The notes under the pieces were generated by a model. That model ran no database searches and was not told the DNA's origin. It worked only from the letters and a program-made list of their open reading frames with translations. Of a stretch of DNA of 64,000 nucleotides, positions 2,434-58,847 are shown in pieces (position 1 is the stretch's first letter; each line of letters begins with the position of its first letter). The position numbers and the translations under genes were made by a program. The DNA comes from Sutcliffiella horikoshii DSM 8719 (GTDB lineage Bacteria; Bacillota; Bacilli; Bacillales; Bacillaceae_I): positions 124,001-188,000 of the forward strand of contig LQXN01000061.1 of assembly GCA_001648575.1 (NCBI GenBank), written 5' to 3'.

Positions 2434-2651
2434 AATGGGCACTTCAGACTGTTGACAAACGAGTTAGGATAACTGTTGGAACAGTTGATCTTCGTTCCAG
2501 GCGCTTCGCTTGCTTACGGGCGGTCGGGGAGCCCCTTTTTTACGGGGTCTCCCATGTCCCTTCCTCCCGCGGGCGTCTGCGCGCCTTCCACTACGATCAA
2601 CTAGAGATTCATATCATCTTTAAGCTTTGTCTACACACTGAAGTGCCCATT
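2434..2651 (-). repeat. Dispersed terminator-associated element, copy A, with its flanking arms
   Basis: The element proper is 2445-2640 (196 bp). On the minus strand it begins CAGTGTGTAGACAAAG and ends TTTGTCAACAGTCTG, giving imperfect terminal inverted repeats (12 of 15 positions). It shares an internal GTTGATC...GATCAAC pair and a GC-rich CGCGGG core with copies B and D. Its middle differs: a GGAGACCCC...GGGGCTCC hairpin replaces the segment found in B and D. It is bracketed by 11-bp arms, AATGGGCACTT (2434-2444) and AAGTGCCCATT (2641-2651). Removing the element would bring the arms together as an ordinary terminator between the convergent genes on either side. It has no coding capacity. 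Confidence 0.85.
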
Positions 2652-16985: not shown

Positions 16986-17807
16986 TTGGGACGCATAGGA
17001 TATTTTTTACTATATGTATGTCTGGCAGCAGTCGCAATATTTCAGGTCTTTCCCATAGTCTGGTTATTTTTGTTTTCCCTGAAAAATAACCAGGAGATTT
17101 TTTCAAAATCGCCTTTCGCCCTGCCTACAGAGTTCAGATGGGAAAACTATTTAAAGGTGTGGGAAGGCGGTATAGGCATCTATTTCTGGAACAGTATCTG
17201 GATAACTGGAGTGGCTATCATCTTGACCGTAATATTAGCAAGTATGGCTACATTTGTTATTACAAGGATGCAGTGGAAGTGGAGTAAATTAGTATTGGGA
17301 CTTTTCATGATCGGTTTAATGATCCCCATCCACTCAGCCATCATCCCTTTATTCAGTATGTTCCTGAATGTCAATCTAATCGATAACCCATGGTCAATTG
17401 TTATCACATATACCGCATATAACCTGCCAATAACCATGATGATTTTGTTGGGCTTTTATTATACGCTTCCAAGAGAGATAGAAGAAGCGGCAATCATTGA
17501 TGGATGCTCTGTTCATAGGATGTTCTTCAGGATTATTCTACCTATGACCATCCCTGTCATGTCGACGACTGTCATCATCAATATGATTTATAACTGGAAT
17601 GAATTTGTGTTCGTGAATACCTTCATCAGTTCAGACAAATATAAAACGCTCACAGTTGGAATCCAGAATTTCATCGGTCAGTATATGACGGATTGGGGGG
17701 CAATAGGTGCCACTTTAATCATAAGTGTCTTACCGATTCTTCTTGCTTTTCTATTTTTCAGCAATAAGGTGGTCGAAGGGATTTCTTCGAGTGCAGTAAA
17801 AGGGTAA
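16986..17807 (+). CDS. ABC sugar permease, MalG/UgpE type
   Basis: The partner permease, 273 residues, six helices, with the EAA motif EEAAIIDGCSVHRMFFRIILP around residue 168. It starts at TTG 16986 behind AAAGGAGTG (16970-16978), 15 bp after the stop of the first permease. The operon ends here: the hairpin at 17827 follows and an inserted repeat element lies beyond it. Confidence 0.88.
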   Translation: MGRIGYFLLYVCLAAVAIFQVFPIVWLFLFSLKNNQEIFSKSPFALPTEFRWENYLKVWEGGIGIYFWNSIWITGVAIILTVILASMATFVITRMQWKWSKLVLGLFMIGLMIPIHSAIIPLFSMFLNVNLIDNPWSIVITYTAYNLPITMMILLGFYYTLPREIEEAAIIDGCSVHRMFFRIILPMTIPVMSTTVIINMIYNWNEFVFVNTFISSDKYKTLTVGIQNFIGQYMTDWGAIGATLIISVLPILLAFLFFSNKVVEGISSSAVKG

Positions 17808-17826
17808 TATTCGATAAAATAAAGAA

Positions 17827-17847
17827 ACCTTCCAACTAGGAAGGTGT
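17827..17847. terminator. First copy of a duplicated terminator hairpin
   Basis: ACCTTCC (17827-17833), 5-nt loop, GGAAGGT (17839-17845). The 21-bp stretch is repeated exactly at 18060-18080 on the other side of element copy B. On the minus strand T-rich sequence (TTTCTTTATTTT) follows this copy, so it can end minus-strand transcription. Confidence 0.75.
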
Positions 17848-18057
17848 CAGTGTGTAGACAAAGCTTAAAATAATGAAATTCCCTAGTTGATCGCAGTGGA
17901 AGGAACGAAGACTCCCGCGGGAGGAAGGGACATGTAAGACCCCGCAGGCATAGCCGAGGAGGCTTACGGACCGCCCGCAGGAAAGCGTAGCTCCTGCAAC
18001 GGAGATCAACTGTTCCAACCAATAACCTTATCTGCTAGATAGTTTGTCAACAGTCTG
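17848..18057 (+). repeat. Dispersed terminator-associated element, copy B
   Basis: A 210-bp non-coding element starting CAGTGTGTAGACAAAG and ending TTTGTCAACAGTCTG, so its ends are imperfect inverted repeats (12 of 15). Inner features are GTTGATC (17886-17892) facing GATCAAC (18004-18010), the perfect palindrome CTCCCGCGGGAG (17912-17923), and a GCAGGAAAGC...CTCCTGC hairpin near the right end. Exact 21-bp copies of the terminator hairpin lie on both sides, like a target-site duplication. It sits between two convergent genes (permease and YesL-like). Confidence 0.88.
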
Positions 18058-18085
18058 ACACCTTCCAACTAGGAAGGTGTTCTTT
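18058..18085. terminator. Second copy of the duplicated terminator hairpin
   Basis: ACACCTTCC (18058-18066), loop, GGAAGGTGT (18072-18080), then TCTTTC on the plus strand. The stop codon of the minus-strand YesL-like gene (18069-18071) lies in the loop of this hairpin. Confidence 0.75.
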
Positions 18086-18683
18086 CATGGAGTTTATGGA
18101 AGGCGTTCATACAGAGCCACATTGTTATGAAGGCATAGCCGCTCCCGCCAAATATAAAGGCAGTGGCAGGTAATAAGTAAAATAAAAAGAACAAGGAAGC
18201 AAGACAAACTAAAATGAAAAATGTATGTAGCGGGTGGATAAGCATCAGTAGAAAAGCCTGTTTCAATATAGCCATTACCCTTAAATCAAAGTGGACATAA
18301 GTTGGAAATAAATAAAAAATAAACAGGGAAAATAATAATGTTAAGGCAAAAAGCAGAATTTGAGCCCAAATCAATTCAGGGTGATAATTAAAAATATACC
18401 AATAATCAAAAATGAAAATGACGATCACACCATCAACAAGGAAACCCAATCTATTGCTCTTCCAGAATTCTCTTTTATAATGGTCCCAAAATGTCCGGAA
18501 TAAGGGGAAATCTGTATTCCCTCTCAGCCATTTGCGTATGATGGCAAACATGGAGACAGTGGCAGGGAAGAACCCTAAAATTATACCACCGGCTAAAGAA
18601 AGTAGGATCCAAATTACATTTAAATAAGCAATACGGGTTATCCATTCAAACATACTGTATAGTTTTGAATTCATATTATTCAT
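18069..18683 (-). CDS. DUF624 membrane protein, YesL-like
   Basis: An integral membrane protein of 204 residues with about five hydrophobic segments (near 20-40, 80-98, 110-135, 150-172 and 178-195). The N-terminal SMFEWITRIAYLNVIWIL...GFFPATVSMFAIIRKW pattern is the DUF624 (YesL) signature. YesL-type genes usually lie beside carbohydrate ABC importers, and may assist or regulate them, but the function is unproven. The ATG ending at 18683 follows GGGGTG with 7-nt spacing and fits the family start better than the frame beginning at 18734. It is divergent from xylA, with its own promoter overlapping an XylR-like half-operator. Confidence 0.85.
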   Translation of the reverse strand: MNNMNSKLYSMFEWITRIAYLNVIWILLSLAGGIILGFFPATVSMFAIIRKWLRGNTDFPLFRTFWDHYKREFWKSNRLGFLVDGVIVIFIFDYWYIFNYHPELIWAQILLFALTLLFSLFIFYLFPTYVHFDLRVMAILKQAFLLMLIHPLHTFFILVCLASLFFLFYLLPATAFIFGGSGYAFITMWLCMNAFHKLHERTPS

Positions 18684-18735
18684 CAAGGTACACCCCAATA
18701 TACTAGTAGAATAATTAAGTTGTAGATTTTCCACT

Positions 18736-58637: not shown

Positions 58638-58847
58638 CAGTGTGTAGACAAAGTTATTTTCGAGATTGAAATTCCCTGTTGATTGTAGTGGAAGGAGTGT
58701 AGACTCCTGCGGGAGGAAGGGACTGGTAAGACCCCGCAACGAAGTGAGGAGGCTTACGGACCGCCCGCTGGAAAGCGAAACTCCTGCAACGGAAATCAAC
58801 TTGTTCCAACAGATAACCTTACAATTTTATGGTTTGTCAACAATCTG
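58638..58847 (+). repeat. Dispersed terminator-associated element, copy D
   Basis: A 210-bp element, same length and orientation as copy B. It begins CAGTGTGTAGACAAAG and ends TTTGTCAACAATCTG (inverted terminal repeats, 12 of 15). GTTGATTG...AATCAAC and CTCCTGCGGGAGG replace the perfect palindromes of B with one-base changes, which suggests compensating or neutral drift. It sits between the convergent Nudix and membrane-protein genes, flanked on both sides by the same terminator hairpin. Confidence 0.88.

Follow-up and report, generated by a model that had tools for sequence, protein, structure and literature searches.

A MITE of Sutcliffiella horikoshii flanked by duplicated terminator-like hairpins and its probable IS1182-family partner

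Hairpin-targeting insertion sequences

DDE transposases usually leave a short target duplication of near-fixed length. Among the described elements that target hairpins, IS1272 removes or replaces the stem-loop and leaves no duplication, according to the available text of two reports (PMC4923244, PMC5678879), both of which point to a review (Siguier and colleagues) as the source on palindromic targets of some IS1182 members. Wan et al. 2017 (PMC5678879) present a model with a pathway b, in which the whole stem-loop is duplicated, and a pathway c, in which the loop is duplicated; the two are drawn as alternative outcomes of one model, and the text examined gives no examples of them. In the available part of a paper from 2025 (PMC12056078), the action of IS1182 relatives is described as sometimes involving a duplication or deletion and sometimes neither, and it is suggested that they may recognise DNA structure. 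The family is also listed among those over-represented between convergent genes (PMC9208149, available text), which agrees with terminators as targets. In the accessible portions of PMC3281130, PMC8368016 and PMC10969869, nothing on hairpin duplication was found, and the literature search, with subscription papers and ISfinder notes outside its scope, returned no MITE or insertion sequence with duplication of a whole terminator in the texts as far as they were available.

The element described here carries a target-site duplication that comprises an entire hairpin. Most likely, with a probability of roughly 0.87, it is a MITE that is mobilised in trans, the mover being an IS1182-family DDE transposase that targets terminator-like hairpins of any sequence and duplicates them whole.

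The element and its flanks

The window, i.e. the whole stretch of DNA that was analysed, comprises 64,000 nucleotides of the genome of S. horikoshii DSM 8719. Its relevant features, in window coordinates, are as follows.

17848..18057, plus strand: non-autonomous element (MITE), 210-bp subfamily
17848..17862, plus strand: left terminal repeat CAGTGTGTAGACAAA, 15 bp, imperfect
18043..18057, minus strand: right terminal repeat, CAGACTGTTGACAAA read inwards on the minus strand, imperfect reverse complement of the left one
17825..17847: target hairpin to the left of the element, AAACCTTCCAACTAGGAAGGTGT, one copy of a 23-bp target-site duplication with one mismatch
18058..18080: target hairpin to the right of the element, ACACCTTCCAACTAGGAAGGTGT, the other 23-bp copy, in which the right-hand gene has its stop codon
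17882..18015, plus strand: structured core repeat GTTGATC...GATCAAC, found without these ends in relatives too
16986..17807, plus strand: upstream gene, judged by eye to be sugar ABC permease-like; converges with the downstream gene
18069..18734, minus strand: downstream gene with its stop codon within the right-hand hairpin, which we take to encode a YesL/DUF624-like membrane protein
2445..2640, minus strand: second copy in the window, 196 bp, with an eroded hairpin duplication slightly under the control maximum
58638..58847, plus strand: third copy in the window, 210 bp, with a 26-bp hairpin duplication containing one mismatch

An earlier sequence-only reading had described a 210-bp element with inverted terminal repeats between two identical 21-bp copies of a terminator hairpin, and its observation of an element between hairpins is real. 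The element boundaries, the terminal repeats (17848-17862 and 18043-18057, both imperfect) and the convergent orientation of the flanking genes were confirmed. The hairpin copies are, however, 23 bp long and differ once (A at 17826, C at 18059), and the right copy, which had been placed at 18060 behind a 2-bp gap, starts at 18058, so that both hairpins adjoin the element without a gap on either side. The right-hand gene ends with a stop codon at the complement of 18069-18071, inside the right hairpin.

The fold of the whole hairpin-element-hairpin stretch is stronger than that of shuffled sequences (z -5.4 and -5.7 for the two strands). The window copy encodes no transposase; just a chance-looking 114-aa frame runs across the element. 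No match to the window at gathering score was found in Rfam, and a permissive search gave one sub-threshold match, SOX2OT_exon2, with 16 bits against a cut-off of 45.

Copies in the genome

Copies were collected with the end pattern CAGNNTGTNGACAAA, which matched the genome 222 times compared to one match for the reversed control. This approach was used because a BLAST search with the element scored 40 of 279 candidates, with at least 43 matches. Of these exact ends, 213 of 222 (distinct by context) lay within the DNA examined for pairing. Pairing led to 129 pairs, from which eight longer than 600 bp, a broken insertion sequence and seven chance-looking pairs, were dropped. The resulting 121 end-paired copies shorter than 600 bp, a census that misses copies with two degenerate ends, belong to one sequence cluster and have flanks that are all different. 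They comprise two MITE subfamilies of about 210 and 220 bp, which have the ends and the core in common and differ in the linkers between them. Four pairs of elements are arranged in tandem with a single hairpin between the members (including L134, L027, L124, and L025), so a hairpin that has been duplicated apparently becomes a target again.

Eight of the 121 copies exceed 240 bp: five of 436-441 bp (L136, L198, L199, L175, and L194), L173 with 397 bp, L130 with 297 bp, and L064 with 469 bp and mis-called ends. In the copies of 436-441 bp, the apical loop of the core carries a nested element of 219-223 bp with a core of its own and with the ends of a second IS1182 clade (see below), which is clear in four of the five and has decayed ends in L194. 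The element was not found in phage records, and four plasmid records hold part of it only, namely the core region.

The target hairpin

In a gapped alignment, the two flanks of 113 of the 121 copies repeat each other above all 1,206 mismatched-flank controls; under a stricter ungapped rule, a flanking direct repeat was scored in 105 of 121 copies and in none of 601 mismatched flank pairs. The eight copies at or below the control maximum consist of three with duplications eroded by eye, including the window copy at 2445-2640, two with mis-called ends, and three with a one-sided or different hairpin (L146 has two different hairpins, L130 and L177 a hairpin on just one side). The 105 scored repeats are 105 different strings, which fall into 99 groups at 80% identity, and four of the six groups with shared repeats are tandem neighbours.

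The duplicated stretch is 17-39 bp long (median 26, n=105) and is predicted to fold into a hairpin with a median stem of 10 bp and a median loop of 5 nt; its median ΔG is -14.8 kcal/mol compared to -2.3 kcal/mol after shuffling. The predicted stem reaches both edges of the repeat exactly in 67 of 105 cases, the unpaired overhangs are within 1 nt of each other in 95 of 105, and the length of the duplication correlates with stem plus loop (0.95, n=105). An A/T tract adjoins the stem on at least one side in 102 of 105 cases, compared to 34 of 105 further out. None of the 105 copies lies inside an ORF of more than 150 aa. According to naive gene calls, 40 are located between convergent, 53 between co-directional, and two between divergent genes, with ten unknown; gene stops lie a median of 13 bp from the hairpin (140 gene ends, same naive calls). 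The target thus has the features of an intrinsic terminator, i.e. a GC stem-loop, an A/T tract, and a position at gene ends, and judging from these features the flanking hairpins probably act as terminators. Paired hairpin copies show fewer mismatches in their stems (72 of 2168 positions) than in their loops (44 of 508; p 1e-6), suggesting that the stems remain under constraint on both sides of the element; indirectly, this means that both hairpins are perhaps still working.

These counts bear out two proposals of the sequence-only reading, which had suggested a genome-wide search for copies: that the hairpin is the target-site duplication of the insertion, and that a MITE-like element targets terminators, since most copies elsewhere likewise sit at a terminator-like hairpin that is present on both sides as a duplication. 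The interpretation as a MITE is supported by these copies together with the empty sites in relatives.

Empty and shared sites in relatives

A comparison of insertion loci with relatives, which had also been proposed, was done with one genome per species and revealed single hairpins at the window locus, pyrG, and rarA. Downstream of pyrG, this genome has the order hairpin-element-hairpin, while seven of 13 relatives (L264-L267, L270-L272) hold a single copy of this hairpin and continue with the same sequence behind it; the other six differ, and two further hits (G004 and G015) are left out of this count. Downstream of rarA, three of ten relatives (L276, L277, and L281) agree with this genome in the sequence that follows and carry just one hairpin, and the remaining seven differ downstream, in a count that leaves out five more hits. 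An orthologue of the window locus with 80-81% identity is present in two relatives, one of which (L298) has one hairpin in the same place, so that one of the two orthologous loci is empty. The other (L297, genome G015) has the hairpin and, at the same terminator, a different insert bearing another core-type repeat.

At asnB, the insertion is common to this genome and a relative (L263) and is therefore older than the split of the two species. At splB, relatives show diverged single hairpins only, and at ylbL the orthologous hairpin was not found in relatives. A replacement of the stem-loop as for IS1272 was not observed, as flanks are repeated in 113 of 121 copies and filled sites have two hairpins where empty ones have one.

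The IS1182-family partner

The terminal repeats of the MITE are shared with autonomous insertion sequences, as its end motif matches the ends of L079 and L218. L218 is an intact insertion sequence with an exact 30-bp hairpin duplication, and its transposase of 448 aa scores 477.4 bits against the IS1182 model NF033551 (cut-off 270). The partner transposase contains the Pfam domains DDE_Tnp_1_6 and DUF772. An intact relative from another family (L220) is flanked by a 26-bp hairpin duplication. In the genome of strain DSM 8719 itself, a degraded IS1182-type element at C4:393188-394685 has the ends CAGCTTGTAGACAAA and CAGACCGTAGACAAA and eroded duplicated hairpin flanks. The transposase pieces of the partner type in this genome are the C4 copy, which is broken by stops, and a 65-aa fragment on C58; activity would therefore need another source. 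The intact partner transposase of a genome of the same genus (G001) is 99.8% identical to one encoded on a Sutcliffiella horikoshii plasmid, where its coordinates are almost unchanged. The other PF13751 transposase of the genome (L080, 451 aa) was considered as the mover and rejected, as it lacks such ends.

The hairpin duplication was further analysed in named genomes, using the best 80 of 461 relatives, whose titles assign them to Bacillus and similar genera. Of these loci, 67 were scorable, i.e. the two ends were found together with 40 nt or more of flank to the left and to the right, and 13 were unscorable. Among the scorable loci from these best 80 of 461, 62 of 67 are flanked by duplications and five are not. 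The 62 duplications are all different, 60 are free of mismatches, and 61 fold as hairpins to within 2 nt of their edges. Bacillus sp. OV166 has at least 12 copies, each at its own hairpin. A hairpin duplication was present in seven of eight copies examined in genome G027 and in three of four in G026, with one copy lacking it in each. Outside Bacillota, a Providencia plasmid (L418, transposase at L418:674-2146) carries an IS1182 element flanked by a duplicated hairpin of 21 bp.

Thus, the MITE and these IS1182 elements have a target-site duplication of one kind, a whole hairpin on both sides. Based on this duplication and on the ends that they have in common, an IS1182-family insertion sequence is likely the autonomous partner of the MITE. 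A sequence-profile search of solved structures gave nothing relevant to the transposase. For its predicted structure (mean pLDDT 72), the nearest match in Foldseek was the Tn5 transposase (E 2.6e-5, TM 0.35), a likeness of the model that supports a DDE fold and leaves the recognition of hairpins unexplained.

A second clade

A second clade of the IS1182 family has different ends, GAGGCCACTGAAAAA, both of which were found at 13 of 15 loci (L396-L405, L235, L236, and L240); L235 and L401 are the same copy, and L231 and L238 are without ends. Its transposases have 491-494 aa where checked, and two of 491 aa were assigned to IS1182 with 359 and 361 bits. All 12 distinct copies are flanked by an exact duplication of 8-10 bp. 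In nine of the 12, the duplication covers the tip of a predicted hairpin, i.e. the loop and up to three flanking pairs; for six of these nine the hairpin tip is the apical loop of a core repeat, and the other three lie in terminator-like hairpins. L404, L405, and L240 have no clear hairpin. In a tree of 26 transposases, which was calculated without IS1272, the 19 members with whole-hairpin duplications and the four with tip duplications are split by a branch with 100/100 support.

The structured core

The core corresponds to element positions 35-168 (17882-18015 in the window) and also occurs with other flanks (L092-L113, L201-L215). The repeat GTTGATC...GATCAAC is widespread across the order, and a match to the element was found in 41 of 61 genomes searched, the genome of the window included. 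A third type of flank, GGCTNTGTTAAAG ... TTTAACAGAGC, surrounds the core in L101, L110, and L112 and may represent another type of MITE.

The covariance check proposed in the sequence-only reading was done on an alignment of 26 cores chosen among the examined loci and revealed covariation. In the consensus structure, 97.9% of cells are paired. Two-sided changes were found in 12 of 30 pairs, which was equalled in none of 500 shuffles, and a slid control had at most three such pairs; the slid control is the safer comparison because related rows inflate covariation counts. Further pair types in the core are no more numerous than in shuffles (190 of 500). In the 26 cores, two-sided changes affect 49 cells compared to five with one-sided changes, and this excess could reflect a constraint that acts on the DNA. 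In 108 oriented copies of the MITE, departures from the commonest pair comprise 106 two-sided, 30 one-sided, and 73 broken cells, so that decay of the core is common within the MITE.

Proposed mechanism and alternative explanations

From the observed duplication, its symmetry, the empty sites, the common ends, and the IS1182 elements with like behaviour, we infer mobilisation in trans, an extruded target, and the position of strand transfer. The transposase would accept a terminator-like hairpin as target regardless of its sequence. Extrusion of the hairpin as a cruciform would bring its two feet together at any stem length, and strand transfer would take place at both 5' feet. Gap repair would then copy the entire hairpin, resulting in one hairpin on each side and in a duplication as long as the hairpin. 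As both neighbouring genes would retain a hairpin, the insertion would be nearly harmless and would provide two fresh targets. The mostly symmetric edges at the foot of the hairpin and the length that tracks the hairpin are what strand transfer into an extruded hairpin would yield. A symmetric target also predicts an unbiased orientation of the element, which agrees with 29 versus 23 copies relative to the direction of the tract (p 0.49; 52 of 96 copies with a clear direction).

The main rival to the cruciform leaves the element and its mover unchanged and places the insertion in a single-stranded hairpin, for instance on the lagging-strand template, or in terminator DNA opened by transcription. 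The location of the targets at terminator-like hairpins next to gene ends, where DNA opens during transcription and replication, would fit this route, but joining of two strands, mostly symmetric edges, and the lack of an orientation bias are explained more simply by a two-sided cruciform, so that this route is considered unlikely. The sequence-only reading had offered a domesticated insulator or RNA element as an alternative. In a fuller form of this idea, an insulator or structured RNA under selection would separate the genes, and both hairpins would have been retained because they are useful. The very stable fold of the stretch, the covarying core, and the conserved stems of paired hairpins would suit such a function, and the idea is partly relevant to the core as a separate covarying structured repeat. 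For the insertion it is needless: each scored copy has its own hairpin sequence, relatives have empty sites, and transposase-bearing elements show the same ends and duplication. Moreover, about half of the departures in the 108 cores keep two-sided pairing, which may partly reflect the two subfamilies, while the rest are decay or wobble. As an account of the locus, domestication is therefore very improbable. Even less credit is given to hairpin pairs that arose after insertion by tandem duplication or by recombination between separate terminators, for which L146 with its two different hairpins and L130 and L177 with one-sided hairpins could be cited; 60 of the 62 duplications of the named insertion sequences are exact, the edges coincide with the element ends, and the single-hairpin empty sites rule out this process as a general route.

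Beyond the preferred reading, i.e. mobilisation by an IS1182-family transposase at an extruded hairpin, a more general scheme is held to be slightly better than an even bet. IS1182 transposases would read the shape of the extruded hairpin instead of a sequence or a set spacing, and the joining site, at the 5' foot, the tip or the 3' foot, would be specific for the clade, leading to duplication of the whole terminator, to a duplication of 8-10 bp that usually covers the tip, or to replacement of the stem-loop as for IS1272. The target, not the enzyme, would set the length of the duplication. At least two types of MITE with unrelated ends, and perhaps a third, would have acquired the same kind of covarying core as their body, and its apical loop would serve as a landing site for the tip clade.

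A duplication length of 17-42 bp that tracks the hairpin hit is strong natural evidence of a DDE transposase targeting DNA structure. Landing in terminators and copying them is a neat route to more than 100 sites at little harm. Paired near-identical terminators can mark past insertions, and structure-directed insertion at gene ends is a possible tool.

Comparison with known systems

BOX, RUP, and SPRITE of pneumococcus resemble the MITE in being small intergenic repeats, one of them terminator-like; it is SPRITE itself that is terminator-like, and a duplicated hairpin target is not described in the available text (PMC10969869). ISEfa7 of Enterococcus faecium, which is annotated as IS1182-like, has the ends CAGACTGTAGACAAA, and the transposases of two copies are 58-59% identical to that of L218. 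Despite the same type of ends, neither of the two examined plasmid copies of ISEfa7 has a flanking duplication, and one examined plasmid copy of ISCfr1 is without duplication as well.

The second clade with the ends GAGGCCACTGAAAAA belongs to the same family as the partner of the MITE and likewise has a hairpin as target in nine of 12 copies. It differs from the clade of the MITE in duplicating 8-10 bp, usually the tip, similar to pathway c. As far as described in the available text of PMC4923244 and PMC5678879, the closest systems are IS1272 and TnSha1 of staphylococci, which share with the MITE and its partner the IS1182 family and a stem-loop target of any sequence, terminators included. 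The terminal repeats of IS1272 have 16 bp compared to the 15-bp motif of the MITE. The outcome is different, as IS1272 deletes or replaces the stem-loop, whereas the MITE and its partner clade duplicate it as a whole. The three-branch model for IS1272 thus becomes directly testable: in the available text of PMC5678879, pathway b is a possible branch, and for the MITE and its IS1182 clade it is the usual outcome.
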